Part shown: one piece after another, positions 2,870 through 25,155 of the stretch
Position numbering within the stretch: position 1 is the first letter of the stretch
How the letters are laid out: each line of letters begins with the position of its first letter
Source: an uncultured Winogradskyella sp.
GTDB lineage: Bacteria; Bacteroidota; Bacteroidia; Flavobacteriales; Flavobacteriaceae
DNA length: 64,000 bases
Reading direction: 5' to 3'
Assembly (NCBI RefSeq): GCF_947498345.1
Contig: NZ_CANMJY010000002.1
Coordinates: 1-64,000, forward strand
Translations under genes and position numbers: made by a program
Notes under the pieces: generated by a model
Seen by the model: the letters and a program-made list of their open reading frames with translations, nothing else
What the model was told of the DNA's origin: nothing
Databases searched by the model: none

Positions 2870-3748
2870 ATGGATGAAATTTTAAAAGACTCAAGAGTTG
2901 TAGCTGGAATAATTTCTGCGATTACAGCAATACTCACAATATTCATTCTAAAACCAATAGTCGATAGAAAATTTTTAAAATTCAGATTAAATCAAGAGCA
3001 CAAATACGAACAGAGAAAAAAAATTAAGGAGGTTTTAGCTAAAAACAAAACCCATCTTTTAAATAGTGCCGAAGATTTGAATCACAGACTGTGGAATTTT
3101 ATCAACAATCAAGATAAAAATTGGCATAAAGTTGATGGAGAATACTTTGAGAATGGACACAATTACTTCAATTCCTTTGTTTATAGAATTTTAGCATTTT
3201 ATGGTTGGTTGAGGATAATCGAAAAGCAGATGATATACTTAGACACAACAATAGCAACAAAGGATGATTTAAACTTTATTAAATACATCAAAGTTTTTCC
3301 TCAAATAATGTGTGATTTAGCTCTATTCAAAGGCGAGAACTATGATTCGAATAATGCATCTGACCATTTCTTCAGGAATAGCTTTCAAAATATTGCTCTA
3401 ATCCTTGTTAAAGGAGATGAAGTAACAGATTACGCAAATTTGTTCGATGAATTGAATTACTGCCAAGAGGAATACACCCAAATGTGTGAGTTTATTGATG
3501 GAATTTCAAGCACAGAAGAAAGACTACGGTTTGACAGATTAAAACTGCTTCATTTGACTTTAATAGCTTTCATAAACAAATACGGCTATGATTTTCAATA
3601 TACAGAAAAGAAAAAGATAGAGTATATCGCAAAAACGCCTCGGAAATCAAAACTAATTAAGAATTATACATATCTCATTCAGAGAATTAAATTAGACTCT
3701 GAAAAGGAAATGAAGAAACTTTTAAAAACAATAAAAGACTATGCCTAA
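2870..3748 (+). CDS. Single-span membrane protein of unknown function
   Basis: A 292-residue protein with one N-terminal membrane segment (about residues 9-30, VAGIISAITAILTIFILKPI), a basic stop-transfer stretch, and a long helical, Lys/Glu-rich cytosolic part (N-out/C-in by charge). I do not recognise a family. Its last codons and stop lie inside the GCCTAAC box of attC-like element B, so the gene sits between two structured elements like a cassette. There is no obvious partner gene. The 1-TM plus helical cytosolic layout occurs among membrane defence effectors, but nothing specific supports that here. Confidence 0.65.
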   Translation: MDEILKDSRVVAGIISAITAILTIFILKPIVDRKFLKFRLNQEHKYEQRKKIKEVLAKNKTHLLNSAEDLNHRLWNFINNQDKNWHKVDGEYFENGHNYFNSFVYRILAFYGWLRIIEKQMIYLDTTIATKDDLNFIKYIKVFPQIMCDLALFKGENYDSNNASDHFFRNSFQNIALILVKGDEVTDYANLFDELNYCQEEYTQMCEFIDGISSTEERLRFDRLKLLHLTLIAFINKYGYDFQYTEKKKIEYIAKTPRKSKLIKNYTYLIQRIKLDSEKEMKKLLKTIKDYA

Positions 3749-6619: not shown

Positions 6620-7411
6620 CTAGTTAAGCGGATAGTTAGCAGTAAGTACTTCTGTCTTTCGACCTCTTGGTTTATTGCCTTGTGCTTTTCTAGCTGATAA
6701 AGGCTTATCAAAACTTTTGGTATGCCACCCAAATTCTTTGATATATTTCTCTAAAACGGTATTAGGATATGAGGACAAAATGAATTTCGCTTTTAGCTTA
6801 GAAAGTACTTTTAAAAGATTTTCAAAATGTTCTTGGGTGTACCCGCCATAATGACCTTGATTAGAATTTGGATATGGCGGGTCGATATAGAAAAACACAT
6901 CTTCGTTATCTCTATTGACAATGACCTTAAGTGCATCAAGATTTTCGATCTGAGCTTTTTCAAGTCTGTCAACAATTTCAGTGTTAAAGCGTAGCTTTTT
7001 GTTTTGAAAAACTTTTACCCGTTTTCCATATTTATCGTAGCCCCAAGAACCAATCTGGCAGCTAAAGCCCATATTAGTTCCCACATAGAATGCCCAGGCC
7101 TGTTGCAGTTTATTAAACAAGTGAGGCATTCTATAAATGGCAAGGGCAACGCTATAGGTTGCTCTTGAAAACAAAGTTGCTTCAATCTTAGTTTTTAGAT
7201 TATCAAAATCCGTTCTTGCCACTTCAAAGAAGTTGACCACCATGTTATTGGTATCGTTGATCACTGAAGCTTCGGCAGGGGACTTTGCAAAGAAAATGGC
7301 ACCACCACCAAAAAAGGGTTCTATGTAGACCTTATGTTTTGGGATCAATGGTACTATTTGCTTAATCAAGTTTAACTTGCCACCATAGTAGGTTATTGGG
7401 GTCTTGGACAT
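6620..7411 (-). CDS. D12-class DNA adenine-N6 methyltransferase (Dam-like)
   Basis: This 263-residue enzyme should transfer a methyl group from SAM to N6 of adenine in DNA. Visible motifs are N-terminal TPITYYGGKLNLI and IEPFFGGGAIFF (SAM-binding motif I), and FFYIDPPYPNSN with the catalytic DPPY (motif IV), followed by FILSSYPN. Length and motif order fit the Dam/M.DpnII alpha class. No restriction gene is adjacent, so it is probably an orphan methylase protecting or regulating the element. It is co-directional with the RadC-like gene. Confidence 0.92.
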   Translation of the reverse strand: MSKTPITYYGGKLNLIKQIVPLIPKHKVYIEPFFGGGAIFFAKSPAEASVINDTNNMVVNFFEVARTDFDNLKTKIEATLFSRATYSVALAIYRMPHLFNKLQQAWAFYVGTNMGFSCQIGSWGYDKYGKRVKVFQNKKLRFNTEIVDRLEKAQIENLDALKVIVNRDNEDVFFYIDPPYPNSNQGHYGGYTQEHFENLLKVLSKLKAKFILSSYPNTVLEKYIKEFGWHTKSFDKPLSARKAQGNKPRGRKTEVLTANYPLN

Positions 7412-7989: not shown

Positions 7990-9060
7990 TTAGAGGATGG
8001 TGTCTGCACTGAAGGGTTTTGAGGGCTTTCCGTTTATCATAAGTCTCAGGTAGATGGAATGGTTGGGAAGGGATGTGAAATCCGAAGCCTTAAACTCAGG
8101 ATAGAACTCTTTTTCCATAAGACGTGCATCTTGAATTCCGAGTCTAAAGCAAATGATGGTTCCTACATTACCCAGGATACTGGCACGTACTTCTGGGTCT
8201 AACTGGTAGAGGAACTGATTACTCAGATTTAGCCCAATAGCAAACTTCCGAATTTGTGCCAACAGCTCTGAAATCAGCTCTGTTCCACTGAGGGTTTGAA
8301 ATTCATCTATATAATAGAAATAGGGCCTACGGTCTTTTACTGGTGTGTCAATTCTTGAAAAGGCTGCCGAGGACAGGGAAGTGAGCATAAGCCCACCAAT
8401 GATGTTAGCCACATCACTTCCAATGGCACCCTTTGCTAAGTTGATAATAAGAACCGTTTTACTATCGATTATCGACCTTAGAGATAGCTGGTTTTTGTTA
8501 TCTACCAATATACGCTTAACAACATCATGGGATAAGAGTGCACCAAGCTTGTTGAGGATTGGAAGCAGATCATTTGGTTTATATTTTGGAAATTCCTTTT
8601 CAAAAAAGGTCTTGACGGCATCATTTCTAATAAAGGGAATAACTGATGCTCTAAAGGACGTATCATGGATCAACCTTAAAATGTCCGATAGGTTTGAGCC
8701 AGGTTTGTCCAATAGACCAAGCAGGCACATTCTAAGAATATGTTCCATTTTCATACCCCAAGCCGATTTCCAATTACGCTGGAATATCTCAAGGAGATTA
8801 GAAGCCACTAACGATCTTTTTGCAGGACTAACTTTTCGTAAAGGATTATAGCCATAAGGAATATTGGGATCGGTAACATCAAAGTAGATCAGCTTTGTTT
8901 TTGGAAATCGTTGTTTAATGTAGTTTGCCATTGTCTTAGCCGAATCTCCGTGTGGGTCCAGGAACATAAAGCCTCTGTTAGCCATAAGGTCTTCTGACAT
9001 CAAAGTCTGTAATAGGGAAGTCTTACCACTTGATGTCTTTCCGAAAGCGTACAGGTGCAT
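7990..9060 (-). CDS. HerA/TraG-like DNA-transfer ATPase (T4CP superfamily)
   Basis: A DNA-pumping ATPase probably involved in transfer of the element. Walker A is FGKTSSGKTSLLQ at the very N-terminus, followed by GFMFLDPHGDSAK and YFYYIDEFQTL (Walker B) and a FNLSNQFLYQL-type sensor region. A final domain is typical of TraG/TraD C-termini. ATG 9060 leaves only about seven residues before the P-loop, which is short for the family. A 20-codon frame just upstream (9122-9060, with YFARANYR) matches the usual N-terminus and stops at TGATG overlapping this start. The N-terminus therefore looks split or frameshifted. Confidence 0.85.
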   Translation of the reverse strand: MHLYAFGKTSSGKTSLLQTLMSEDLMANRGFMFLDPHGDSAKTMANYIKQRFPKTKLIYFDVTDPNIPYGYNPLRKVSPAKRSLVASNLLEIFQRNWKSAWGMKMEHILRMCLLGLLDKPGSNLSDILRLIHDTSFRASVIPFIRNDAVKTFFEKEFPKYKPNDLLPILNKLGALLSHDVVKRILVDNKNQLSLRSIIDSKTVLIINLAKGAIGSDVANIIGGLMLTSLSSAAFSRIDTPVKDRRPYFYYIDEFQTLSGTELISELLAQIRKFAIGLNLSNQFLYQLDPEVRASILGNVGTIICFRLGIQDARLMEKEFYPEFKASDFTSLPNHSIYLRLMINGKPSKPFSADTIL

Positions 9061-9122
9061 CAATCGATCTTTCTGTAATTTGCCCTGGCAAAATAGCTCA
9101 CCTTATAAGGGTCAAAAGGCAT
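9060..9122 (-). CDS. 20-codon leader overlapping the ATPase start (detached N-terminus?)
   Basis: MPFDPYKVSYFARANYRKID and a stop, whose TGA overlaps the ATG of the ATPase as TGATG. The YFA-x-ANYR sequence is what I would expect at the start of this ATPase family, just before a DRLxHLYxxGKT segment. The leader either couples translation by reinitiation or is the displaced first exon-like piece of a frame-disrupted gene. Confidence 0.45.
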   Translation of the reverse strand: MPFDPYKVSYFARANYRKID

Positions 9123-9563
9123 TTAAAGGGAAGGGACATTAGAGATGAATAATTGGTATGTGATTTTTTGCCCAGATAGGATATTGACAATTTTAAAAAA
9201 TTATCAAATACCGATTATCGGCTGGGGAAAAGAACTGGCTGTATGGGAATAGAGTGATAAGTTGAAGTGACTGACTGGCTATGTAATATCTGCTTTGCTT
9301 ACCTCTATTATATCATGGCAAGCCATCAAGTGCCAGTAAGTAACTTATTTAAGGTTCATCTTATGAACCTTGATTTTATTTTATTATGAGATACACTACT
9401 AGTGGTAACTTAAATATAAAGACACCCAACATTGCCCGAAAGGGTCGCTTGCTTCTTTGAAGTGAGTTAAAGCAACGATGTGAGTAAATCAATTTTCTTG
9501 AATCTTTAGATTTGAGTTAATGAAAGACCCACTGGATTGCTTTCGGTGGGTCTTTTATGTTAT
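9123..9563. other. Non-coding region between transfer ATPase and integrase (candidate attachment/control region)
   Basis: No gene is seen. It holds a CCGATTATCGG palindrome near 9209, a 9-bp hairpin at 9351-9371 followed by a T-rich run, and three loose copies of a TGAGTTAA-like motif between 9460 and 9522. A 10-bp hairpin (9523-9532 with 9546-9555) ends in Ts just before the integrase start. Such repeats beside an integrase could be recombinase arm sites. Confidence 0.4.
9523..9557 (+). terminator. Hairpin with T-run in the integrase leader
   Basis: The arms AAAGACCCAC (9523-9532) and GTGGGTCTTT (9546-9555) pair perfectly, followed by TT. The structure ends 7-9 bases before integrase ATG 9564, so it would terminate read-through or occlude integrase translation. 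Confidence 0.5.
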
Positions 9564-10445
9564 ATGACAATTAAAAAAGCAATACAGATTTATTTAGACT
9601 GGAAACAAACCCATACCAGCGTTGCATGTTCACGCTATATGGTAAGATTAAAACATTTTATAAAATTCATCAGCCCTAAATCCTGTCTGATGGACATCAC
9701 GGGCGATGATATTATAGATTTTCATAAGAGCATGGAACCTATTTACAGCCCGACAACTATCGCTTACTCAGCAAGAATCCTAAAGAATTTCTTTTGGTTC
9801 TGGCACGGAAGGGGGCAGACCGAAATTAATCCCAAGGAAATTATACCTATACGATTTATTAATGCTGATAAAGCGATCGTAACCCAATCTGATTTTGAAG
9901 ATATGAATTTTGCCTTGGGCAACGACACTCTTGCTAATCTTCAAAAAAAGCTGGTACTCAACCTACTTTGGGACACTGGCATGCGGGTCAGTGAACTATT
10001 GGATGTCAGGCTCTCAAATATAAGCAGTCAAAACTTCAATGGTCTTAGAACGGCAAAAGTTAGAAGTCGAAAGACAATGCGCTATGACCTGGTTGTTTGG
10101 TCAGCCCAGACCAATGAGCTTTTGAACCAGTACTTGGGAATTCGATTGTGCTTTCCCATGGCATCGGAATATTTATTATTAAATAGAAAGACAGGGAAGC
10201 CATTCACCAGTAAAAGTGTTCAAAGATGGATAAAGGATATAGCGGATATGGCAATGATAGATAAAGATATCACACCCCACAGTTTCAGACATGGTAAGGC
10301 CAATGCTATATTGGAACATGGTGGTACGGTAAGGGATGTAGGGGCACTACTCAGGCATGTGAGCCCAAGCTCAAGCTTTAATTATCTCCAGCTATCTGAA
10401 CACCGATTCTTACAAACAGCAGGAAAGTTTCTGCGGACAGCGTAA
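9564..10445 (+). CDS. Tyrosine recombinase / integrase of the mobilizable element
   Basis: A 293-residue integrase catalysing integration and excision. The N-terminal SAM-like core-binding domain covers about residues 1-100. The catalytic set is visible: Arg in LLWDTGMRVSELL, HSFRHG (HxxR), LLRHVSPSS (His) and the nucleophile Tyr in FNYLQLS. I use ATG 9564 (MTIKKAIQIY) because upstream in-frame TTG 9537 lies inside the leader hairpin. The gene is monocistronic between two hairpins and close to the transfer gene block, the usual place for an IME integrase. Confidence 0.9.
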   Translation: MTIKKAIQIYLDWKQTHTSVACSRYMVRLKHFIKFISPKSCLMDITGDDIIDFHKSMEPIYSPTTIAYSARILKNFFWFWHGRGQTEINPKEIIPIRFINADKAIVTQSDFEDMNFALGNDTLANLQKKLVLNLLWDTGMRVSELLDVRLSNISSQNFNGLRTAKVRSRKTMRYDLVVWSAQTNELLNQYLGIRLCFPMASEYLLLNRKTGKPFTSKSVQRWIKDIADMAMIDKDITPHSFRHGKANAILEHGGTVRDVGALLRHVSPSSSFNYLQLSEHRFLQTAGKFLRTA

Positions 10446-10939: not shown

Positions 10940-11444
10940 GTACACTACTCCTGTTGCGAATGTTTTCTTTGATAGTCTTATGCAACAGTTGTCATCCTCG
11001 GCCATTCGCGTCTATCTAAAGATCGCTCGCAACACTAATGGTTGGCGAAATGAACTTGGGCAGGTGAAAAAACGGGATTGGATAGCGCACTCCCAGTTTG
11101 GCAAGGTCGGTGTTAGCCCAAGAAGTGTCACGACTGCCGTTGAAGAACTGCTCAGTCTTGAACTGATTCATGTCACGGATGAACAGGGCAATAGTTTGCA
11201 CGACCCCCAGAAACGCAAACGTGCCAAGCGCATTTATTACGGTCTTATCGACCAGACCCAAGCACAAACTGCTTTCAACAGCGCACAAAACCACAAAAAC
11301 AAAACGCAATTTCAGCCGACGACAAAAGAAAGTTCTACAAAAGAAAAGTACAACGTAAATGAACGTTTAACAGACAAACAAAGAATGCAACAAATATTAC
11401 AAAATGAAGAAGAAAAACAGATTAAAAGAGATGATTGGTTGTAG
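10929..11444 (+). CDS. Helix-turn-helix replication-initiation-like protein
   Basis: A 171-residue protein whose first 110 residues form a winged-helix-like domain: SSSAIRVYLKIARNTNGW, then GVSPRSVTTAVEELLSLELI, typical of phage replication O / RepA-type initiators and MarR-like DNA binders. The C-terminal 60 residues are polar and probably disordered. Its place between the integrase and the cargo fits a replication or copy-control function for the excised element. A regulator is the alternative. Confidence 0.55.
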   Translation: MTLRYTTPVANVFFDSLMQQLSSSAIRVYLKIARNTNGWRNELGQVKKRDWIAHSQFGKVGVSPRSVTTAVEELLSLELIHVTDEQGNSLHDPQKRKRAKRIYYGLIDQTQAQTAFNSAQNHKNKTQFQPTTKESSTKEKYNVNERLTDKQRMQQILQNEEEKQIKRDDWL

Positions 11445-11478
11445 TCAATCATCTTTTTTAATAACTGAACATTCATAC

Positions 11479-13266
11479 TTAATAAGTTCTTTCATAATAT
11501 ATACGCTTTATAGATGATACAATTTCAAAACCAAAAGTGTTCTTAATATAATTATCTGCCAAATCTTCGAATTTCTTCAAACTAGTTGGTAATAACGTTA
11601 TTATTGAGTTGCCATAAAAAGACCTTTTCTCAGAAATGGCTTCCTTTGAAATTGGAACAATTATTCTATCATTCACATAATAATTTATTAATCCAAAACG
11701 AATTGAATACCAAAGAAAAATATCTTGAGAGCAACCTAGTTTTTGATGGTTAATCTGATATCTATCAAACTCATTTTTAATATTTTTAGGAAAGAACTTT
11801 TCTAAATCATCTAAATACTCTATAAGTTTATCCTCATATGCTATATAATCGATATCAATTTTTTCTAAGCAATTTAAAAGTCTTAATTCTGATGATTCAT
11901 CATTTTTCTCCTCTTTATTATCTATCAAAACACATAAAGAATAATCATCTCTATTAATTTTCAATCTTTTGAACTCATTCATAATTATACCGTATTCAAA
12001 TTCGATTTTTTTATTTAGCTCATAATCACTCATCTTTCTAATTTCTTTATAATCAAAATGAGCAAATTCTACACTATACTTATTAACATGTAACTTCTTT
12101 CTATACGGGTTAAACGAATTCAAAGAATTAATGACATTATTAGTATAGATGTTAGCTATTTCTACAGCAGTTCCCCAACATAAAGTTACACCACTACCAC
12201 CATGTCCAAAATTATTGTATAAGCTTATTTTCTCACCTGAACCAAATTGATGATTGTAGTGATTAAGAAAATATCCTTTTCCATCTTCGAAGTAAGGTCT
12301 AGATCCAATAAGAATCTTGTTGGGCATATTAATATTGATTTTATGATTTTTTAGAAAAAGCTGAAGGCCAAAATCGTCTAATTCTGGATTAGAAATCAAT
12401 TCTTTTAATCTATTAAGAAGTCTATCTATTAAATCTCTCTCATTTTCACCTTTTTTTATTTCACCAGTACCTATTGTTAACTCATTCTTTCTGCAAAGGA
12501 TAGTTAATTCACCCATAACAATAGTATTTTCATAGGTGTGTAAATTTTTCAATTTATATAAAAGCAAAACACCTTTTTTAGGTCTTATTATCCTGTTGCT
12601 AAAAATGTTAATTTTCTTCTTGTTGAAAATACTAAACCCATTCAAACCAGTACAATTGAATACCACTTTTTCTTTTAAGCTTTTTAAGTTTGATGGACCT
12701 ATTTTTTTAGTTTTAAGTTCACCACCTAGACTTATAAATAGTTGCTCAAGAAATTTCAAAAAAATAGGGGGATCTATAGCATAAGTTAGGTATCCATGTA
12801 AGTATCTGAACTCTATATTAGAAGATGTTGAATTATCTAAATATTTTTCTTCAATAGTTGTATTTTTAATATTTTTAGAAGCCCAAAAGTCTTTTAATAA
12901 TTTAATATAGTAAAAATCACTTTTTAAGTTTCCGTTTGATTTTATAGAATCTAAAGAATATTCAAAATGTTTTTTTTTGTAAACTCCTAAGTCCTGATTC
13001 TTTCGTTTTTCAGAAATATCAAAAAAAAACTCTAGTGATTTTTTAGAAATTTGCCATATTTGTTCAATTACTTCTTTGGATTCGTTTTCTAAATTATTGA
13101 AAAGCTTATAAGGTTGCCATAGAGCACAAGCAACTATACTAACCGTATTTTCTGGGTTGGATTGAATTTTATCTTTAGTATAGATAATCACTTCTCTGCC
13201 TTGTTGTAACAGAGCTATTGCTGTACAATAGCCTATTACCCCATTACCTATCACTGCTATTTTCAT
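11479..13266 (-). CDS. DAAO-family FAD-dependent oxidoreductase with novel C-terminal domain
   Basis: The N-terminal 375 residues are a D-amino-acid/D-aspartate oxidase-like flavoprotein. It has the dinucleotide-binding MKIAVIGNGVIGYCTA (GxGxxG at residues 7-12), a second FAD-fold region with VVFNCTGLNG (about 201-210), and GSRPYFED (about 321) leading to NNFGHGGSGVTLCWG (about 351-365). That last segment is the FAD-pyrophosphate-binding signature of DAAO enzymes. Residues about 385-595 form an extra domain with no recognised family. Oxidase activity would make H2O2, a keto acid and ammonia. It is the last gene of a four-gene operon, 2 bases after its neighbour. Metabolic cargo or a toxic effector are both possible. 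Confidence 0.8.
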   Translation of the reverse strand: MKIAVIGNGVIGYCTAIALLQQGREVIIYTKDKIQSNPENTVSIVACALWQPYKLFNNLENESKEVIEQIWQISKKSLEFFFDISEKRKNQDLGVYKKKHFEYSLDSIKSNGNLKSDFYYIKLLKDFWASKNIKNTTIEEKYLDNSTSSNIEFRYLHGYLTYAIDPPIFLKFLEQLFISLGGELKTKKIGPSNLKSLKEKVVFNCTGLNGFSIFNKKKINIFSNRIIRPKKGVLLLYKLKNLHTYENTIVMGELTILCRKNELTIGTGEIKKGENERDLIDRLLNRLKELISNPELDDFGLQLFLKNHKININMPNKILIGSRPYFEDGKGYFLNHYNHQFGSGEKISLYNNFGHGGSGVTLCWGTAVEIANIYTNNVINSLNSFNPYRKKLHVNKYSVEFAHFDYKEIRKMSDYELNKKIEFEYGIIMNEFKRLKINRDDYSLCVLIDNKEEKNDESSELRLLNCLEKIDIDYIAYEDKLIEYLDDLEKFFPKNIKNEFDRYQINHQKLGCSQDIFLWYSIRFGLINYYVNDRIIVPISKEAISEKRSFYGNSIITLLPTSLKKFEDLADNYIKNTFGFEIVSSIKRIYYERTY

Positions 13267-13268
13267 AA

Positions 13269-14123
13269 TTATTGAGGTATTTTATTTCGTAAAGTCCTTG
13301 CTATGGTTAATATATTCTCGAAGTAGTTACAGTATTTGTTTACCTCTGATAACTCTGTAGTAAATAAAGCTTCCTTACCACCATTTTGATTTATGGATTC
13401 ATTTGCTTTTCGAAGTATATAGTCATCGTAAATCACAAAGTCAATTAAGTATTTAGCGTCTATATTGTCCTTATCAACATATATGACATATATTTCTATT
13501 CCCAGTTCTAGATGTTTTTTAAATATATCTTTGAAGCTATTAATTGAAGAGCTCTCAATAAGAAAAATCCTAATGGCTTTTTCTTTCTTTCGATCTATAT
13601 TTTGTTCATGGGCTTTTAAATATAGAGTTCCTTCATGACTAGTCCACCATTTTTCATCTTGATAGCTAATGGCCTTTAAATTATTATTACAGCATTCAAG
13701 AACTTTTTTAGTAACCAAAAGCTCATTACTCGCATTACATCTATACTTACCTCTTTGGATAATTTTCAATTGATAGTTGTATTGATCTAGGATATTTTCT
13801 AAGAAGAAATCATAAAAGCGATCTTTTCTCTCATTAATTTCATATGTAAGTGATACTGTTTCGCCTATTTTCGGGGTTTGCGATAATAGTCGAATAAATT
13901 TCTCGACTAAGTCTTTTTGTTTTTCTACTTTATCTTGATAAGAATGGAGTCTATAGATTACTTTTAATAACAACGATAATAATAGTCCAAGTGTAGCATC
14001 TCTAACTGCTTGTTTACTGGAACTTCCGAAATGAAGACTAGTCAAAAGTATACCAGTAAAAAACAAAAGTAAGCCTATAGCAATTGGCCAGTTTTTTTCT
14101 ATGAAGTTATTATTCTTTCTCAC
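13269..14123 (-). CDS. Two-span membrane protein with cytosolic W/RIF-type domain
   Basis: A 284-residue protein with two closely spaced membrane segments (WPIAIGLLLFFTGILLTSL and an ATLGLLLSLLLKVIY segment), a linker helix, and a cytosolic domain. The domain contains KWWTSHEGTLYLKAHEQNI, then AIRIFLIESS and GIEIYVIYVDKD, an alternating beta/alpha pattern. I have seen this W...YL...RIFI arrangement in uncharacterised bacterial proteins but cannot name the family. It overlaps the dehydrogenase gene by 14 bases and lies 2 bases from the flavoprotein, so it is translationally linked to both. It could anchor or sense for the operon. Confidence 0.7.
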   Translation of the reverse strand: MRKNNNFIEKNWPIAIGLLLFFTGILLTSLHFGSSSKQAVRDATLGLLLSLLLKVIYRLHSYQDKVEKQKDLVEKFIRLLSQTPKIGETVSLTYEINERKDRFYDFFLENILDQYNYQLKIIQRGKYRCNASNELLVTKKVLECCNNNLKAISYQDEKWWTSHEGTLYLKAHEQNIDRKKEKAIRIFLIESSSINSFKDIFKKHLELGIEIYVIYVDKDNIDAKYLIDFVIYDDYILRKANESINQNGGKEALFTTELSEVNKYCNYFENILTIARTLRNKIPQ

Positions 14124-15066
14124 AACCTTTGTTTATGCAAAACGCATCATCTTTTTTTAGAAGTAAATTTATTATTGATTGAGTAGTCATATTACTCACT
14201 GTATCTATAGCTTCTTGCGTGTTGAAACCTGTTTGGGAGTTAGAATAAAAAAATCTATTTGCTGGGAAATTAGGTATCTTACCATCTGGTGCTTTGTCAA
14301 AAGCTGCAAATATTTTTTCATCCTTTAGTAGTTTATACATTTCTTTTAAGTCAACTGCTTCAGGAAAAGCGGCATTGATTAATATGGCATCTTTATGCAT
14401 TAATTGTAAATCATTTTTGTTTATGAATTTTTCTCCAACCTCGTTTGAAAAATGGAGTGAGATAATATCTGCTCTATTCATTAAATCCAATTTTGAAACA
14501 AATTCAATACCTAATCCACTTTCGAGAAAGAATTTCCTATTTCTTGAATAATACAATATGTCCTTAACTCCAAGAGATTTTAAATATTTACATACTAGTA
14601 TTCCTATTCTTCCTAATCCAATAATTCCAATTGTTTTATTTTTTATGGATTTTGTAGTTTTAAAAGACTTACTTCCGGTACGTCCTAAGCTCAATACTTC
14701 TCGATTCATCATAAGCATCAAGCTAAGAGTATACTCAGCTACAGCATCCGCATTTCCTCCTGGACAATTTGAGATGAGTATTCCTTTATCTGTTGCAGCT
14801 TCATAACCTGTTATAAATTCTTTATATCCAGATCCTGTAAACGATATTGCTTTAAGCTTGTCTGCAGATTTAATAACTCTCTCAGTAACTTTTTCTATTC
14901 CTCCTAAGATATAACCAGTTTTTCCCTTAATAGCTGAGCACAAATCTTTTTCGGATAGATTTGGGTTGTCAATTCGTTCAATATCAAACCCTGCTTTATT
15001 TATGATTCTCTCATGCTTTTTATGAATGAAGAGACTATCAGTTATTAAAATTTTTTGTCGATTCAT
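14110..15066 (-). CDS. D-isomer-specific 2-hydroxyacid dehydrogenase
   Basis: An NAD(P)-dependent enzyme interconverting a 2-hydroxy and a 2-keto acid. The N-terminal substrate half contains ISNCPGGNADAVAEYTL. The Rossmann half begins IGIIGLGRIGILV (GxGxxG) with YYSRNRK as dinucleotide-selecting segment, then ILINAAFPEAVD. The usual catalytic His-Pro pair near the C-terminus is not evident (SNSQTGFNTQEA is in that place), so activity may be altered. I choose ATG 15066 (MNRQKILITD); the longer frame to 15129 adds an unlikely 21 residues. It follows the CARF regulator by 77 bases. Confidence 0.85.
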   Translation of the reverse strand: MNRQKILITDSLFIHKKHERIINKAGFDIERIDNPNLSEKDLCSAIKGKTGYILGGIEKVTERVIKSADKLKAISFTGSGYKEFITGYEAATDKGILISNCPGGNADAVAEYTLSLMLMMNREVLSLGRTGSKSFKTTKSIKNKTIGIIGLGRIGILVCKYLKSLGVKDILYYSRNRKFFLESGLGIEFVSKLDLMNRADIISLHFSNEVGEKFINKNDLQLMHKDAILINAAFPEAVDLKEMYKLLKDEKIFAAFDKAPDGKIPNFPANRFFYSNSQTGFNTQEAIDTVSNMTTQSIINLLLKKDDAFCINKGCEKE

Positions 15067-15143
15067 ATTAATTAATTTTACATTCTTATTGTTTTGATTC
15101 AAGCTTATATCTGATTTGATGATTTTCAATGTATAGACAGAGC

Positions 15144-16577
15144 TTATAAATGATATTTTTCAATTTTCTTTTTTAGTGTGTTATATGCTATTTCTAAAAC
15201 CATAGAAGATTTACTTAAATTTCTATTATACATTGCTAGGACCATTTTTATATGTTTCTTCTCCATGTCTCTTAAGCTAAGAGAAGCTATTGAACCTTGA
15301 GGATACTTGATTTTATTTGGAATATCCTCCATAACTATTTCCTTTTCACAATACACATAAAATCGCTCAATTATATTCTCAACCTCTCTTATATTTCCTG
15401 GAAAGGAATAATTATATAGACAACTCTTTACTTCTTTAGTGAATCTAAGTTTTGGCTTATCAAAAAGACGACTCTTCTTTTCTAAAAAAAAAGTGAACAA
15501 CGATTCTTTTTCTTTTGTGGGAAGTTCGCGGAATGCTATTGCTCTAATATCAGCTACCGCTAGCCTGTAATATAAATCTGCCCTAAAAGATCCCTTCTCA
15601 ACTAAGCTCCAGAGATTTTCATTAGTTGCTGATATGACTCTTACATCAACTTTATATTTTTCATAGCTTCCTACTGGTGATACTTCTCGTTCTTGAAGAA
15701 CACTAAGAAGGTTTTGCTGTAATCTGGGTGTAATATTACCTATTTCATCTAAGAATATAGTTCCTTGATGAGCCTCTCTGAAAGCACCTTTAAAGTCAGT
15801 TGTCGCATCTGTAAAAGCCCCTTTAACATGTCCGAAGAGATGACTTTCTATAAGGTTTTCTGGGATTGCACCGCAGTCAACTTTGATAAATGGATATTTA
15901 CTTCTTCTTGATTGTTTATGAATATATTTTGCTAAAACACCTTTTCCTGTTCCTGTTTCACCAGAAATAAAAGTAGTTACATCATTGGCTGATGCTATTT
16001 TCTTAGCAAGATCAAATACTTTCTGAATGGTTGCTGTAAATTCAAATAATCCTTTTTCAAAAGGATTCCTTTTATTGCTTTCTTGTATTGCAAGACCATT
16101 TATCAGGTTGGCATATTTTACCTCTATATATTCTTTTTTAGGTTCGCCTTTTCTATATCTAGGAGGCCGCACATGAAATAATTTAATGTTTTTATATTCC
16201 ATTGCTAGTAAATACCACGCAGTCTGCATTGCTGGTGTTCCTGGGGATACAAAAATCTCTACATCTTCTTCAATATATTCTCTTAGCAAAGGAAACAACT
16301 TATCTTTAATCTCCTCTATACTAACTACATCTTTAATATCCATGTATTGCGGGAGAGTATTCTTCTGGTAGGTTCTTCTCAGGTGATTAAAAAGAAATTG
16401 AAACTTTGTGTCTGGATTTTGTTCAGACGATCCAGATAAAAGAAGATGTAAATCGTAGTCGAAAATATGTGAGTAAAATTCACAATGGGTACCATGACTA
16501 TTTACAATGACTTTTCCATCATCATTTTTTTTGAAATCATGACTATACGCGATCCAAGAAATTAAAATTTTTCTCAT
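15144..16577 (-). CDS. RtcR-like CARF-sigma54 activator (bacterial enhancer-binding protein)
   Basis: A 477-residue regulator. Residues 1-150 resemble the RtcR N-terminal CARF domain, with SPGTPAMQTAWYLLA at about 111-125 as the ligand-loop motif. CARF domains bind cyclic oligoadenylates or RNA ends. Residues about 175-420 are a sigma54 AAA+ domain: GETGTGKG (Walker A, 206-213), GAFTDA (253-258, a variant of the sigma54-contacting GAFTGA loop), GTIFLDE (Walker B), and a PGNIREVENIIERF segment. The C-terminus is a Fis-like HTH (about 431-477). It is the first gene of the leftward operon and no RtcA or RtcB gene is near, so it probably controls the three genes below it. Confidence 0.85.
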   Translation of the reverse strand: MRKILISWIAYSHDFKKNDDGKVIVNSHGTHCEFYSHIFDYDLHLLLSGSSEQNPDTKFQFLFNHLRRTYQKNTLPQYMDIKDVVSIEEIKDKLFPLLREYIEEDVEIFVSPGTPAMQTAWYLLAMEYKNIKLFHVRPPRYRKGEPKKEYIEVKYANLINGLAIQESNKRNPFEKGLFEFTATIQKVFDLAKKIASANDVTTFISGETGTGKGVLAKYIHKQSRRSKYPFIKVDCGAIPENLIESHLFGHVKGAFTDATTDFKGAFREAHQGTIFLDEIGNITPRLQQNLLSVLQEREVSPVGSYEKYKVDVRVISATNENLWSLVEKGSFRADLYYRLAVADIRAIAFRELPTKEKESLFTFFLEKKSRLFDKPKLRFTKEVKSCLYNYSFPGNIREVENIIERFYVYCEKEIVMEDIPNKIKYPQGSIASLSLRDMEKKHIKMVLAMYNRNLSKSSMVLEIAYNTLKKKIEKYHL

Positions 16578-16594
16578 CTAGTTTTCTTATCAAT

Positions 16595-16715
16595 TTTTGA
16601 TACTAGTTTTCAGATTTTGATATCCTTTGTTTTTTTAAATAATTGATAATCAATTATATAAGTGTGGACTAAGCATTGAATTTAATATAGCAGTTGTTCA
16701 TTGAAAATCTGAAAA
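16595..16715. promoter_or_regulatory. Cluster of repeat operators upstream of the CARF-sigma54 operon
   Basis: Two direct TTTTGATA repeats (16595-16602, 16615-16622) are spaced exactly 20 bases apart. A TTTTCAGATTTT / AAAATCTGAAAA inverted pair lies at 16607-16618 and 16704-16715. A 17-base palindrome, TAATTGATAATCAATTA, is at 16640-16656. The two-helical-turn spacing suits an enhancer-binding protein site. No GG-N10-GC sigma54 core was found on either strand between 16578 and 16868. Confidence 0.45.
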
Positions 16716-16868: not shown

Positions 16869-17057
16869 ATGAAAACTGTTAGAAAATTTTTACCGTTAGT
16901 TCTATTTATTAGTATCTTCTCATGTAATCCAGATGATACGATCTATGAAACCCAACCGAATAGCCCCACCTTAGAGTGTTGTACAGAAAACGGACAATTA
17001 CCCTCTGAACCAGGTGGACAAGAGGAAGAGAAAGAAGAGGGTAATCAAGGAAATTAA
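16869..17057 (+). CDS. Small SPII lipoprotein
   Basis: A 62-residue precursor with a basic start, a hydrophobic core and lipobox FISIFSC. Mature protein is about 43 residues, with paired Cys (LECCTENG) and an acidic, Gly-rich tail (GGQEEEKEEGNQGN). It is followed by a terminator and then by the TPR histidine kinase gene. It could be a ligand or partner for that kinase, which is inferred only from position. Confidence 0.65.
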   Translation: MKTVRKFLPLVLFISIFSCNPDDTIYETQPNSPTLECCTENGQLPSEPGGQEEEKEEGNQGN

Positions 17058-17076: not shown

Positions 17077-17105
17077 AAAGCCATGCTGAATTAGCATGGC
17101 TTTTT
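17077..17105 (+). terminator. Rho-independent terminator after the small lipoprotein
   Basis: An 11-bp stem (17077-17087 with 17093-17103), 5-base loop, ending in a T run. Confidence 0.85.
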
Positions 17106-17161: not shown

Positions 17162-19138
17162 ATGAATAAATATAGGTTACATTGTCTAGGCTTTTTATTT
17201 TGTTTAATCTTTAATTGTTCAAATAATGTTGAAAAGAAGACAAATATTATTTCTAATAAAATCGTCGATAGTATTAATAGTTTACTAGACTCTTCTAAAA
17301 CTAAGAATATTGCTAATCCCAAATCATATGCTCAAAAAGCATTTCTTCTTTCTAAAATTCATAAGAATGATTCACTGTGGTACAAATCTTTAGATAGACT
17401 ATCTATTATTAATTACAGATTAGGTTTATTAGATACATTCAGAATGAATAGTGAAATGTATTATTTAAAGGCCTTATATAATAAAGATACATTAAATTTA
17501 GCTAAAAGTCATTATAACCTCGGAAGTTACTATTACAAGGTCTTTACATATGATAGTGCTTATTATCATTTTAATAAATCTCAACACTTTTTTAAAGAGA
17601 TCGGTGATAGTTTACAAGTCACTGCGAATTTATTAAATATGGCAATATTACATACTGCTGTCGGTGATTATCATTCTAGCGAGAATATATCAATTGAAGC
17701 TCTTTCATTTTTAGAATCTTATAAAAAATCATCTTATAGACTTTCTCTATATAATAACTTAGGCATAATTTCAAATGATTTAGAGGATTATGACGCAGCT
17801 AGATTTTGGTATAATAAAGCATTATCATTTACAAAGTCTTCAAAGCAAAAGATAACCCTCCAAAATAACTTGGGAATAACATTTCGAAATGAAAAACAAT
17901 ACGAGTTGGCACTAGACTTGTTTAAACAGGCATTGTCTAATCCAAAAATTGAAAATTACGCCAATATAAAAGCTATGGTAATAGACAATATTGGATATGT
18001 GAAATTATTAACAAACGAACAAAATCCATTAAAAGAATTGAATGAAGCATATAGTATTAGAAAGCAAGAGGGTTCGATAAGTGGACAAATGGTAAGTCAA
18101 TTACACTTAGGTGAGTTCTATTGGAACCACAATAAAGATTTTATAAAAGCAAACACATTCTATGAACTAGCACTTTTTAACGCAAATAAATTAGGTAATA
18201 TCAAATATAAATTAAAAGCTTTATTGAAATTATCAAAAATTAACCCCAATGCTAACTATTTAAATTCATATGTTCAATTACAAGACAGTATCATAAACTA
18301 TGAGCGAAGCTTAAAGAGGGAATTTGCAAAGATAAGATACAGAACTGACCAAAAAGAAAGTGAAAATTTCATCTTAGAAAAATTAAATACTAGTCAATCA
18401 TTAATAATAGAGAAACAAAGAAATCAAAACCTTGTCTTTGTCATCCTGCTAGTTATTCTGATTGGTTCGATCTTAATTCTTATAGTTTACAATTATCAAA
18501 GACGAAAATTACAATCACAAAAGTTGATAATTGAAAAACTACGAGTTAGACATGAAGAAAAAAATAAACTATCCGTCTATTTGCATGATGATGTTGCTAG
18601 TGATCTTTTATTAGGATTACAAAAAGGAAATATATTACAAAAGGAATTTAACGATCCATATTTAAAAGAAACTATGAATTATTTTGACAACGCATACAAT
18701 AAAATGCGAAAAATTTCTCAAAACCTAAATAGTGAACAATTCAAACATATATCCTTTGATAAAAAAATAATTTTTTTAATAAGTGAGTATAACTTTGACT
18801 CAAGTTTGAAAATAAAGAGTATAGGTGTATCTTCCATTGATTGGAACTCAATTCAACATGATGTTAAAGTAGTAATTTTCGGCATTATTCGTGAAGCCTT
18901 TAATAATATCATAAAACATTCTCAAGCATCAGAAGCTACTATTTCTATTAAAAAAGTGAAAGATATACTTCAAATTGACATTAAAGATAATGGTAAAGGG
19001 TTTTCAAATATTGAAAGCTTAAGTTCTGGAATTGGAATTTCTAACATTAGAGCAAAAGTAAAAGAGATGAATGGCCTCTTTAATATTAGTAATCTTCCAA
19101 TTCAAGGGTCTTTACTGGAAATAAAATTAAAAATTTAA
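17162..19138 (+). CDS. TPR-type sensor histidine kinase (HisKA_3-like/LuxR system)
   Basis: A 658-residue membrane kinase. It has an N-terminal signal with a Cys (LIFNCS), so the sensor part may be lipidated. A periplasmic domain of TPR repeats spans about residues 60-400, with one membrane span (VFVILLVILIGSILILIVYNY, about 425-445). The dimerization helix carries the phospho-acceptor LHDDVASDLLLGL, and the HATPase_c domain has N-box REAFNNIIKHSQ, DNGKGFSN and SSGIGISNIRAKV. The response regulator starts 1 base after it. A weak -7 box TAGTTTTG lies at 17136-17143. It is cargo in the mobile element, adjacent to but divergent from the CARF operon. Confidence 0.9.
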   Translation: MNKYRLHCLGFLFCLIFNCSNNVEKKTNIISNKIVDSINSLLDSSKTKNIANPKSYAQKAFLLSKIHKNDSLWYKSLDRLSIINYRLGLLDTFRMNSEMYYLKALYNKDTLNLAKSHYNLGSYYYKVFTYDSAYYHFNKSQHFFKEIGDSLQVTANLLNMAILHTAVGDYHSSENISIEALSFLESYKKSSYRLSLYNNLGIISNDLEDYDAARFWYNKALSFTKSSKQKITLQNNLGITFRNEKQYELALDLFKQALSNPKIENYANIKAMVIDNIGYVKLLTNEQNPLKELNEAYSIRKQEGSISGQMVSQLHLGEFYWNHNKDFIKANTFYELALFNANKLGNIKYKLKALLKLSKINPNANYLNSYVQLQDSIINYERSLKREFAKIRYRTDQKESENFILEKLNTSQSLIIEKQRNQNLVFVILLVILIGSILILIVYNYQRRKLQSQKLIIEKLRVRHEEKNKLSVYLHDDVASDLLLGLQKGNILQKEFNDPYLKETMNYFDNAYNKMRKISQNLNSEQFKHISFDKKIIFLISEYNFDSSLKIKSIGVSSIDWNSIQHDVKVVIFGIIREAFNNIIKHSQASEATISIKKVKDILQIDIKDNGKGFSNIESLSSGIGISNIRAKVKEMNGLFNISNLPIQGSLLEIKLKI

Positions 19139-19139
19139 A

Positions 19140-19802
19140 ATGAAAGCAATAAAACTTTTGCTTGTTGAAGATCATGATTCAGTTAGTTTAGGAATACAAT
19201 ACAGCCTTAAACAAGAACCATCATATTCATTTGATATTAAAGCTACATCGGATGCGAATAGTGCTTTTAATGAATTAAAAAATAATGATTTTGACATAGT
19301 TATATTAGATCTAATTTTAAAAGGCAAAATTGATCGAGGTCAATTTACTTCTGGAGATGAACTTTTAAGCTATTTAAGCAAATTAGAATACAGACCCAAA
19401 GTTATTGTAATGTCAAAGATTGATAGCTTTGATATGCTTGATTATGTAGTATCTGTCTTAGATGCTGACGCTTATATTTTAAAGAGTAAAACTAGTTTAC
19501 AAGAAATTATTCCAGCTATAGATGCAGTGTTGTCTGGGGATAATTTCTTCAGTGATTCCATAAAGAAAATCTTACGCTACAATGAAAACCTTTTGGATAT
19601 GGACATTGTTGACAGAATAATATTAAAGGCAATTAGCAATGGATTGAAACAAAATGAAATTGCTGAAGAGCTTAAAATAAAAAGATATGCGATGACTGTT
19701 TCCGCTATAGAAAAACGTATTAAGAAACTTAAAATTCGTTTCGATGCTCACACCTCACCACATCTGATAGCACTAGCTATTAAAAATGGTATAATTTCCT
19801 AA
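19140..19802 (+). CDS. LuxR/NarL-type response regulator
   Basis: A 220-residue partner of the upstream kinase. The receiver has acidic pocket VEDHD near residue 10, phospho-acceptor Asp in DIVILDLILKG (about residue 55) and Lys in AYILKSKT. The C-terminal HTH region (about 155-220) contains ISNGLKQNEIAEELKI, a four-helix LuxR-like module with an atypical recognition helix. TTGAAAATCAGAAAC at 19856-19870, just downstream, resembles TTGAAAATCTGAAAA at 16701-16715 and may be one of its sites. Confidence 0.85.
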   Translation: MKAIKLLLVEDHDSVSLGIQYSLKQEPSYSFDIKATSDANSAFNELKNNDFDIVILDLILKGKIDRGQFTSGDELLSYLSKLEYRPKVIVMSKIDSFDMLDYVVSVLDADAYILKSKTSLQEIIPAIDAVLSGDNFFSDSIKKILRYNENLLDMDIVDRIILKAISNGLKQNEIAEELKIKRYAMTVSAIEKRIKKLKIRFDAHTSPHLIALAIKNGIIS

Positions 19803-21931: not shown

Positions 21932-23404
21932 ATGATAAAACTATTTATTGATACGATAAGTGATGTTCTCTCAAATATACTGGGGGACATCTCGTCATCA
22001 TTTGATAAAGACCACAGCGTTAATGCAGAATTTGGAAATCCGAACAAGCTCATTTCCAAAAGAAACAAGGGTTGGGTTATTGATGGTGTTAGAGCCTTGG
22101 ACATGGAAACCTCTCGCCGAAATTTATGTGTAGTGGCAGGGTCTGGAAAAGGTAAAAGTCAGAACCACGTATTTACCAGTATCATGAACTGTATTAGCTC
22201 ATCAATGGTCATCAACGATAACAGTTCTGAGCTTAGTGCCACACTTCCATATCTTGAATCACAGGGTGTAAGTACAAAAGTGATGAACCTTGTCCGAAAA
22301 GAGAACGTCTATATCAATCCCCTTGATGGTTGCAATGGTAATGTAGCCGCCATGCGAAAGATTGCCAAGACCCTTATGGGCAATGCAGCTAAGGAAAACG
22401 ATTTCTTTTCCATTAGTGGCGAGGACTGTATCACGATATTTATTCAACATGTATTAGAGTCTGAACCTCGTATTAATGCCAATTTAGGTAATGTCTACAG
22501 GCTTATTCTTGAATTTCAAGGCAATCCCAAGGTAATTGAGAGTTATATGGCGGATAAGGCATCAGATGCGGTCTGGACAAAGTTCAAGGCCTTGGCAGGG
22601 AACTCTGAAAAGACGCTCAAGTCTATTACTTCAACCGCAATTTCAGCACTCAGTTGGTTAGGCGATAACCCTGTTCTTGCTGACCTTACTTCGGTCAGTA
22701 ACATATCATTTGAGGACTTTAGAAAATCGCCAACCTGTTTGTTTATTCAGTCGCCAGCGAGCGATTCTAAGTTCTATGCGCCAATGGTAAGTTTAGTTTT
22801 TCAGAGTTTCTACCGCTATGCCTTTTCAAGACTTCCAGAGGAAAATGACTTGGACATTATGATGATCCTAGATGAATTTTCGTCCCTGATCGATGGGCTT
22901 TCAGACTATAGTCAGATCATTAGTAACAGTCGAAAATTTCGTATACCTCAAGCTATTTTTCTTCAGGACGAATCCCTGCTCAGCCCTTACAAAGAGCTCA
23001 AGGATAATATCCTCGCCAATTGCTATGTGAAATGCTACTACGGGGGTCAGGACAAAAAGGCCTTTGAGCTCGAAAAGCTATTGGGAAGCTATTCCTATGT
23101 TGACGGCAGTTCGGGACAGACCAAATCCAGACCGCTCATGTACGCCTCTGAGATCCGTGAGATGGACGATGAGATACTGGTTATCACCAATGGTCAAAAA
23201 CCTATAAAGGTACGCACCAAGCCTGCATACAAACAGTCCAAGCTTCGTAAGCGTTTGGCAATGGAACTGGATACCGAAGTTCAGGAAGAACCTATGGATT
23301 ACAATATCCAATATATCGACCTATCACCTTACAAGGACGAGATTAAAGATAAGAATGTAGAACCAAATAATTCAGTGACAGATGGACAAGGTACTCTTCA
23401 GTAG
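21932..23404 (+). CDS. Type IV coupling protein (VirD4/TraG-like)
   Basis: A 490-residue ATPase expected to bring the relaxase-DNA complex to a helper secretion channel. Walker A is CVVAGSGKGKSQNH (about residues 66-79), Walker B is IMMILDEFSSLID (about 308-320), and ISNSRKFRIPQAIFLQD is the sensor region, followed by the C-terminal recognition segment. There is no N-terminal membrane domain, so the separate four-span protein upstream may supply it. The phage-type methylase gene overlaps its 3' end by 23 bases. Confidence 0.88.
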   Translation: MIKLFIDTISDVLSNILGDISSSFDKDHSVNAEFGNPNKLISKRNKGWVIDGVRALDMETSRRNLCVVAGSGKGKSQNHVFTSIMNCISSSMVINDNSSELSATLPYLESQGVSTKVMNLVRKENVYINPLDGCNGNVAAMRKIAKTLMGNAAKENDFFSISGEDCITIFIQHVLESEPRINANLGNVYRLILEFQGNPKVIESYMADKASDAVWTKFKALAGNSEKTLKSITSTAISALSWLGDNPVLADLTSVSNISFEDFRKSPTCLFIQSPASDSKFYAPMVSLVFQSFYRYAFSRLPEENDLDIMMILDEFSSLIDGLSDYSQIISNSRKFRIPQAIFLQDESLLSPYKELKDNILANCYVKCYYGGQDKKAFELEKLLGSYSYVDGSSGQTKSRPLMYASEIREMDDEILVITNGQKPIKVRTKPAYKQSKLRKRLAMELDTEVQEEPMDYNIQYIDLSPYKDEIKDKNVEPNNSVTDGQGTLQ

Positions 23405-23825
23405 TAAATATATGGCTTGGGAAACACCACAATGGCTGTTCGATAAGCTCGATAAGGAATTTGGATTTACACTTGATCCGTGCTGTCTACCTAAGACCGC
23501 CAAGTGCAAGAAGTACTTTACTCCCAAAGAGGATGGGCTGATACAGGATTGGAGCGGTGAGACTGTATTCGTCAATCCTCCTTATGGTCGCTCTATTGTC
23601 CTATGGGCAAGAAAAGCGCATATGGAAGCCAAAAAGGGAACGACCATTGTCATGTTGCTTCCTGTTAGAAGCGATACACGGTGGTTCCACGATTGGATAT
23701 ACGGCCATGCTGAGATACGGCTTCTCAAAGGTAGACTTGCCTTTATCAGGGACGGGTGTAGGAAAGGTTCTGCCCCTTTCCCCTCAATGGTTGTGGTCTT
23801 CAACGGTAAATCCAATAAGCCATGA
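23382..23825 (+). CDS. Phage-type DNA N6-adenine methyltransferase
   Basis: A 147-residue methylase of the phage Dam-like family (PF05869 type): WETPQWLFDKLDKEFGFTLD at the start, TLDPCCLPKTAKCKKYFTP, catalytic VFVNPPYGRS (NPPY) and the final FPSMVVVFN. Its short length is normal for the family. ATG 23382 overlaps the coupling protein gene; ATG 23412 (MAWETP) is a possible shorter start. It is the second, unrelated adenine methylase of the element. It may help the element evade restriction in new hosts. Confidence 0.88.
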   Translation: MDKVLFSSKYMAWETPQWLFDKLDKEFGFTLDPCCLPKTAKCKKYFTPKEDGLIQDWSGETVFVNPPYGRSIVLWARKAHMEAKKGTTIVMLLPVRSDTRWFHDWIYGHAEIRLLKGRLAFIRDGCRKGSAPFPSMVVVFNGKSNKP

Positions 23826-24255: not shown

Positions 24256-25155
24256 ATGATCATTAAATCCAAATCCATAAAATCGAGAAAGGCTTTTGAA
24301 AATACCATTCGCTATATCCTTACCAAGGATGACCAGAATAATGTTGGCTTTACCCTAAACCGTTATATCAAAAAGGACAGGCAGTTTGAAACCATGATGC
24401 AGACCGAAACCAATACCCAGAAACGGCTTGAACTCCTTAACAAACGTATCAACAACATCATCCAGTCCTTTGAGTCCAATGAGTCTAAAAGGCTACTTAA
24501 GCGCAAAAACGCCAACCGTGCCTACCATGAGATCATCTCCTTCCATAAGGAGGATACCAAGCACCTACCGAAGAAGGTGCTCATGAAAATAGCCCGTAAG
24601 TATGCCAAAGAGCGTGCACCGCATGCTATGGTCATAAGCACAATGCACAGTGACAAAGAGCATTTACATATCCACAATGTCATCTCAGCTTTGGAATATG
24701 CCACGGGAAAGCCCATCAGATTAACACGCAAAGAATTTAAGGAAGTAAAAACACGAATGGAAGCCTGGCAGGACAGAGAGCTTGGATTGAAACACAGCAA
24801 GGTCGACCATTCGAAAAAAAAAGTACAACTGCTACAGCTCGACATTGAGCGTGAGCTGAACCTAAGGGGGAAGCGTAGTGAGCGCCAAGAGCTACAGCTT
24901 AAACTCATTGATGTTTTTGCCAAGGCTAGATCCGAGAAAGTACACTATCGCAAGTTCGAAAAGGCGGGGCTCATGCTCTACTCAAGGGGTGGAAAAATAG
25001 TTGGTGTACATGGACTTAGAAGACGCTACAGGCTGAAAACCTTGGGGTTTGAGCCTGAGCGTATCGTGATGGAAAAGACAAAAACTCAAGACCGACTGCA
25101 AAACCTAAGGCAGCAACAGACTGAACTGGATATAGGTCTGGGCTTGGAACGTTAA
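24256..25155 (+). CDS. MOB-family relaxase (mobilization nuclease)
   Basis: A 299-residue DNA-nicking enzyme that covalently binds oriT. N-terminal IIKSKSIKSRKAFENTIRYI contains the candidate catalytic Tyr (RYI). The metal-binding motif is HSDKEHLHIHNVI, and YHEIISFHKED is motif II-like. The C-terminal part is very basic and probably binds DNA. It is short for a relaxase and lacks a helicase domain, as in Bacteroidota MobB/MOBP types. oriT is not identified; the leaders at 19803-19919 and 25156-25195 are candidates. Confidence 0.85.
   Translation: MIIKSKSIKSRKAFENTIRYILTKDDQNNVGFTLNRYIKKDRQFETMMQTETNTQKRLELLNKRINNIIQSFESNESKRLLKRKNANRAYHEIISFHKEDTKHLPKKVLMKIARKYAKERAPHAMVISTMHSDKEHLHIHNVISALEYATGKPIRLTRKEFKEVKTRMEAWQDRELGLKHSKVDHSKKKVQLLQLDIERELNLRGKRSERQELQLKLIDVFAKARSEKVHYRKFEKAGLMLYSRGGKIVGVHGLRRRYRLKTLGFEPERIVMEKTKTQDRLQNLRQQQTELDIGLGLER

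Follow-up and report, generated by a model that had tools for sequence, protein, structure and literature searches.

We describe a four-gene operon headed by a CARF-domain transcriptional activator in a 64,000-nucleotide stretch of contig NZ_CANMJY010000002.1 (assembly GCF_947498345.1), hereafter the window, from an uncultured Winogradskyella sp. of the Flavobacteriaceae (Bacteroidota). To our minds the chances are about even that this is a mobile, rarely held operon of defence type under the CARF regulator, with a flavoprotein of D-amino acid oxidase (DAAO) fold as its likely catalytic effector. The evidence comprises the subfamily of the regulator, a three-gene module found again in a second phylum, the folds of the encoded domains, the loss of catalytic motifs and operators shared with related regulators, all of them read from sequence or from prediction.

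The preliminary description of this DNA placed four minus-strand genes here, and all four open reading frames (ORFs) were recovered at those positions, in the order regulator, dehydrogenase-like gene, gene for a protein with two transmembrane stretches (2-TM) and DAAO-like gene:

15144..16577, minus strand: regulator, 477 aa, RtcR_PspF2-type CARF - AAA+ (sigma54 activator) - Fis helix-turn-helix (HTH)
14110..15066 (ATG start) or 14110..15129 (TTG start, 339 aa), minus strand: gene of D-2-hydroxyacid dehydrogenase (2-HADH) fold
13269..14123, minus strand: 2-TM protein, 284 aa, GTG start, with a predicted C-terminal PLD-fold domain
11479..13266, minus strand: DAAO-fold FAD protein, 595 aa, with a DAAO part at residues 1 to ~385 and an uncharacterised alpha/beta module at ~395-595
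11429..11454, minus strand: terminator-like hairpin 3' of the DAAO-like gene, of a kind no more frequent in the scan than chance predicts (2 against 1.8 expected)

The genes had been said to overlap or to sit 2 bases apart, which is true of the last three (a 14-bp overlap between the dehydrogenase-like and 2-TM genes, and 2 bp between the 2-TM and DAAO-like genes) but not of the regulator, which is separated from the dehydrogenase-like gene by 14 nt with the TTG start or by 77 nt with the ATG start. The ATG at 15066 is likely the better start than the TTG at 15129, because it fits the Arcobacter homologue described below better. A scan for sigma70-type promoters gave 32 sites against 31.1 expected by chance. 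Family searches of the operon genes confirmed that there is no RNA-repair gene among them, and RtcB had 0 matches in the whole of the own genome.

A rare three-gene module in two phyla

A 3.8-kb contig (L001) of a metagenome-assembled genome (MAG) of Arcobacter (Campylobacterota) carries homologues of the dehydrogenase-like, 2-TM and DAAO-like genes in unchanged order, their proteins being 49%, 28% and 31% identical to those of the window, respectively. In addition, two 2-TM database proteins each agree with a DAAO database protein in the length of their longest contig (P0003/P0009, 12446; P0004/P0010, 4119), which suggests that the members of each pair are co-located. On this sequence evidence the three genes form a real and very rare module. 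The DAAO profile matched 1 of 395 genomes of the phylum and the 2-TM profile 1 of 397 genomes of the family, in both cases the own genome, and among 298 genomes of the phylum of Arcobacter the DAAO profile matched only the one that carries L001. On genome contigs the DAAO profile found 11 loci, with a full-length match only in L001, and a profile search of the DNA of the ten others did not detect the C-terminal extra module.

Plasmids yielded no relative of the DAAO-like protein, and viral contigs none with the DAAO (A1) and 2-TM profiles. Searches with the extra module were negative for plasmids and phages as well as for viral contigs, and the dehydrogenase-like protein had no plasmid relative at E<1e-30. 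The Arcobacter DAAO-like protein gave matches to its DAO domain on 48 plasmid records, none of them covering 80%.

The regulator and its relatives

The assignment of the first gene to the CARF-AAA+-Fis architecture is borne out, by sequence profile, by a match over residues 3-476 of 477 to the PADLOC model PDLC01995 (RtcR_PspF2, CARF_AAA_HTH; E=1.3e-116, 388.6 bits). Pfam recognised Sigma54_activat (2.3e-63) and AAA_lid_14 (1.4e-13), together with HTH_8 at 0.0038 and 17.4 bits, under the cut-off of 22. The CARF region carries the motif SPGTPAMQ, and Walker A, Walker B and FRADLYYR are all intact. That the protein is a true RtcR was rejected, given that the Pfam model RtcR (PF06956) had 0 matches in the own genome, that RtcB is missing there as well and that the PADLOC model of RtcR proper scored lower, at 151.1 bits. 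Cas10, which would be a type III producer of cyclic oligoadenylate, was sought with one Pfam model of its palm-2 domain and had no match in the own genome.

Relatives of the regulator were counted with a profile of the CARF region only (A6), built from three sequences (window, L052 and L053), as PDLC01995 is unfit for this use, its AAA+ domain matching 395 of 395 genomes. The CARF profile identified relatives in 10 of 395 genomes of the class, own included, in 4 of 92 from a different family in the phylum, and on three Bacteroidota plasmids. Seventeen neighbourhoods besides the window were inspected, comprising 14 genome stretches (L052-L054, L060, L061, L072-L080) and the three plasmids (L089-L091); L054 had been picked via the PADLOC model and is missed by the CARF profile, yet is counted here. 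A further locus, L055 (G124), taken up for a match with one stop in it, was dropped, since no CARF regulator was found there.

A recognised defence gene lies beside or near the regulator in ten of the 17. Among these, there are operons for type I restriction-modification (R-M) or methylases (L052, L053, L061, and L060 by its likeness to L053), CRISPR-associated genes (Csm5, Csx1 and Cas1 in L078; Cas1 in L079; Cmr3, Cmr4 and a CARF-HEPN protein in L080; an annotated cas10/cmr operon in L089) and an annotated BREX locus (L090). In L077, a gene at 8739-9899, divergent from the regulator, encodes a PLD-like domain joined to a C-terminal region that matches PADLOC E2/cyclase models, and we read it as CBASS-like. 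The link of this subfamily to defence is thus upheld: members of the RtcR_PspF2 branch are frequent neighbours of antivirus loci, which they probably activate. Within Bacteroidota, the survey supports both the proximity of the CARF branch to R-M, type III CRISPR and BREX loci and its probable role in regulating them.

On the Aureispira plasmid (L089, NZ_CP133672.1 60770-75300) a type III-B cas10/cmr operon is oriented divergently to the CARF-AAA-HTH regulator and a sigma54-like site is found at -100 (p 0.004); the locus is a candidate case of type III CRISPR transcribed under CARF control. In L061 (5074-7911) an N-6 methylase fused to an ATPase domain of histidine-kinase type is divergent from the regulator; the operons of L053 and L060 are similar and include a 312-aa gene that by eye is suggestive of a response regulator.

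It is already known that operons outside Rtc and linked to defence are run by RtcR-like activators. Makarova et al. 2014 (PMC4012209) describe RtcR-like CARF-AAA-HTH proteins that are unlinked to Rtc and often linked to R-M, and a 2024 report places RtcR homologues at the head of type II CoCoNuT defence superoperons (PMC11090510). In comparison with the RtcR-RtcAB RNA repair operon, the window shares a CARF-AAA+-Fis sigma54 activator but lacks rtcA and rtcB and belongs to a different subfamily. Closer are the R-M-linked RtcR-like proteins, which according to PMC4012209 have the same architecture, a non-Rtc context and an association with defence; relatives of the window regulator adjoin type I R-M. 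In contrast to those R-M-linked relatives, whose regulators are divergent from their neighbours, the window regulator is co-directional with its cargo, which is DAAO-like, pseudo-dehydrogenase and pseudo-PLD. With the type II CoCoNuT loci, as outlined in PMC11090510, it shares an RtcR homologue located 5' of a co-directional defence operon, whereas the window operon is much smaller and has other effectors; none of its four genes matched the McrB/C-type and CnuH families of CoCoNuT. The new part is the cargo, of which we found no account in the literature searched, namely open-licence papers in PMC: searches for D-amino acid oxidase in anti-phage defence or defence islands and for RtcR in phage defence since 2022 returned no report, and D-amino acid oxidase combined with CRISPR and CARF returned unrelated literature only.

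Folds and lost motifs of the three products

The protein described earlier as a D-2-hydroxyacid dehydrogenase acting as a redox effector keeps the fold of that family, with clear 2-HADH profile matches (Pfam 2-Hacid_dh_C, 1.2e-24) and the Rossmann motif GLGRIG, but seems to have lost its active site. Where 2-HADHs carry the catalytic arginine (ILINTSRG in 1wwk, ILINIARG in 2dbq and LINTARG in two 2-HADHs of the own genome), the window has ILINAAFP and the Arcobacter protein ILINTSYA, so that the arginine is replaced by phenylalanine or tyrosine. For the own-genome comparison, L081 and L082 each gave a 2-HADH; L083 was disregarded, its longest frame encoding a different protein. In place of the PH motif the window has SQ and the Arcobacter protein LQ, according to motif reading in a region where the MAFFT alignment is poor. 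The protein therefore resembles D-3-phosphoglycerate dehydrogenase (1wwk) and other 2-HADHs in its Rossmann domain and family profile only, and an active phosphoglycerate or lactate dehydrogenase was rejected as an identity. Redox catalysis by it is unlikely. Because both changes are common to two phyla at 49% identity, they argue for a retained, non-canonical role rather than for decay.

The second product, previously an unnamed 2-TM protein, does have two hydrophobic stretches, which are N-terminal. In its C-terminal half, residues ~117-284 are predicted to form a PLD-fold domain, an assignment made chiefly with VIA-align, in which the HxK(x)4D motif is missing. Its conserved motifs are YxDxxWW, RIF and DFVIYDD. 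Foldseek placed TrmBL2 at the top of its matches with low TM-scores of 0.34-0.39, and the sole Pfam match (DASH_Duo1, E=0.068) was taken as chance. The C-terminal half resembles the PLD fold of the TrmB/TrmBL2 sensor domain and of FAM83, from which the window protein differs in its two additional hydrophobic helices and its own motifs. To our knowledge, neither the TrmB/TrmBL2 sensor domain nor FAM83 has a working HKD pair.

The third product is a DAAO-family flavoprotein with an uncharacterised C-terminal domain of ~200 residues, as had been proposed. Pfam DAO matches residues 2-372 (1.6e-17), and the DAO fold and the FAD-binding GxGxxG are present. The extra module follows the DAO domain in one group of proteins and precedes it in another (P0027-P0030); being found at either end, it appears tied to the DAAO domain. 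The two parts are joined in the metagenomic proteins P0009, P0010, P0012-P0018, P0022 and P0027-P0030, and the extra module has an invariant E/H/D/K/D/E/C/D/W/R cluster. The module had no PDB sequence match at E<=1, and in a structure search with the full-length protein the list was filled by the DAO domain. Compared with D-amino-acid and D-aspartate oxidases (2du8, 1kif, 6rkf and 9vpf), the window protein is 17-22% identical, has the 200-residue extra module and lacks a counterpart of the putative Tyr228. An arginine in a GxRP motif, R323, is found without exception in the 16 aligned sequences; by way of the Arcobacter motif RPYR..VRLE we read it as the equivalent of DAAO Arg283, while the HMMER alignment puts it at Arg279. 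By motif reading the column of L254 would correspond to DAAO Tyr228, and it holds leucine in 10 of the 16 sequences (the window clade), tyrosine in the Arcobacter protein and P0022, phenylalanine in P0018, P0023 and P0025, and cysteine in P0024. A substrate of another class, a nucleic acid or nucleotide derivative as for the MnmC-type FAD proteins that act on tRNA, with the extra module as a binding or second catalytic part, seems to us quite improbable.

Control region and sigma54 contact loop

Upstream of the regulator gene there are three palindromic elements:

16588..16602, minus strand: operator 1, exact palindrome TATCAA-AAA-TTGATA, 10 bp 5' of the regulator ATG
16608..16622, minus strand: operator 2, TATCAA-AAT-CTGAAA, 2 mismatches, located 20 bp 5' of operator 1
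16634..16648, minus strand: possible operator 3, TATCAA-TTA-TTTAAA, 2 mismatches

The window has a single copy of the exact palindrome in its 64 kb. TATCAA-N3-TTGATA is also found near the regulator start in L052 (1 mismatch), L053, L060 and L061 (0 mismatches each), and in all four, as in the window, a second imperfect copy is located exactly 20 bp farther upstream.

Ten of the 17 relatives have a divergent -24/-12-like site between 85 and 125 bp 5' of the regulator start (L052, L053, L054, L060, L061, L074, L076, L078, L079 and L089; p<=0.021 by mononucleotide shuffles, with the -85..-125 band set after a first look at the data, and with L053 and L060 sharing a promoter region and so not independent), and it is near-perfect in L052 (TTGGCACTGGGCTTGCA) and L054 (TTGGCACGCTATTTGCA). 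In the window, by contrast with the claim that transcription starts from a sigma54 promoter, no convincing -24/-12 site was detected upstream of the operon, the best scoring 15.5 of 22.7 (shuffle p 0.155 and 0.355) with a home-made matrix based on the sigma54 consensus, by which weak sites can be missed; in the divergent band the best score was 13.7 (p 0.20). The loop that contacts sigma54 also departs from the canonical form, reading GAFTDA where the relatives have GAFTGA (16 of 17) or GSFTGA (1 of 17), and the claim of a sigma54 start is not sustained. The DNA-binding site thus seems to be kept in the window while a sigma54 promoter is unrecognisable.

Taken with the precedent of NorR, in which G266D, a change of the same kind at the second glycine of the loop, fully bypasses the sensor domain (PMC2941729), the GAFTDA loop and the lack of a recognisable promoter indicate by analogy that the window regulator may be constitutive or outside sigma54 control. 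In that event it would no longer be a ligand-gated sigma54 activator and would mainly regulate itself, which agrees with operator 1 ending only 10 bp before the start codon, and the operon would be read from a housekeeping-type promoter. We hold this to be possible but rather doubtful, for the host genome encodes RpoN, the Walker and FRADLYYR motifs are intact, NorR G266D remains competent for sigma54 activation according to PMC2941729, and a home-made matrix can overlook a weak site.

A 62-aa ORF (16869-17057), a putative lipoprotein by eye, is divergent from the regulator and sits where the relatives have their divergent defence operon; it is followed by a 12-pair hairpin (17077-17103).

A working scheme and its alternatives

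For the CARF-controlled defence operon we infer the following, including ligand, induction, complex formation, substrate, effector chemistry, defence function and antiviral outcome. The regulator would bind the tandem TATCAA-N3-TTGATA sites before its own gene, and on binding of a nucleotide signal of infection by the CARF domain, its own gene and the three downstream genes would be transcribed more. The three products would then act jointly, probably at the inner membrane. Sensing or scaffolding would fall to the membrane-anchored pseudo-PLD and to the pseudo-dehydrogenase, with its Rossmann NAD-binding motif, while the DAAO-fold flavoprotein, extended by its extra module, would be the catalytic effector on an amine or an amino-acid-like substrate. 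A more specific version, that this is a membrane-associated immune module switched by CARF, in which two pseudoenzymes gate a DAAO-type flavoenzyme with a catalytic-looking module and the chemistry is amine oxidation instead of that of a nuclease, pore or NADase, is put forward tentatively, and we would sooner bet against it than for it.

Several observations weigh against a CARF-controlled defence operon with a catalytic DAAO. Besides the GAFTDA loop and the promoter result, the window clade is without tyrosine where the Arcobacter protein has its putative Tyr228; no recognised defence gene was seen in 7 of the 17 neighbourhoods (L054, L072-L076 and L091; some of their genes searched); and no PADLOC family matches the effectors convincingly. 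The four genes had also been expected to be neighbours in other genomes, which is so for the three effector genes in Arcobacter but has found no support for the regulator: regulator and module are seen together in one genome only. Only 172 bp of the L001 contig precede the module, leaving any regulator there out of view, and a search of the genome it belongs to (G773, a MAG of unstated completeness) gave no regulator relative at E<=1e-20; in G226 and G716, of the same genus, only AAA+-region matches were obtained.

The last two points, the absence of convincing PADLOC matches and of a regulator relative in the Arcobacter genome, would also be expected if the three genes were a metabolic or cell-envelope unit, for instance for handling D-amino acids or N-methyl amino acids, that rides on the element with a CARF regulator, and both the DAAO and the 2-HADH folds are metabolic. 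We nevertheless regard such a unit as unlikely, since the dehydrogenase lacks the catalytic arginine and the PH motif in both phyla, the regulator subfamily is associated with defence, and the module is held by so very few genomes (1/395, 1/397 and 1/298).

CARF-AAA+ activators are an antivirus signalling branch few of whose ligands and outputs are known. This locus pairs such an activator, a natural GAFTDA variant with a defined candidate operator, with a small and conserved cargo of unusual chemistry, so that ligand, promoter class and effector chemistry are each directly testable. If the DAAO-fold protein is the effector, amino-acid oxidation would join the chemistries of defence.

Mobile and defence surroundings

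The operon lies among genes of mobile elements and of defence, as the preliminary description had it:

9537-10445: integrase
7990-9063 and 21932-23404: proteins of type IV coupling protein (T4CP) type
24256-25155: MobA-type relaxase
6620-7411: D12 methyltransferase
23382-23825: orphan methyltransferase
1992-2504: ThsB-like TIR protein (PADLOC ThsB1|ThsB, 1.2e-49)

The ThsB-like TIR gene and the methyltransferase genes are within about 15 kb of the operon. The gene next to the former (2870-3748) had no Pfam match at E<=0.001. At 75-1799 an Ntox8 toxin-domain protein is followed by a DUF2750 protein, with the look of a toxin-immunity pair. Adjoining the operon, at 17162-19802, are genes for a 658-aa protein that by eye is like a TPR-type sensor kinase and for a response regulator (Pfam Response_reg).

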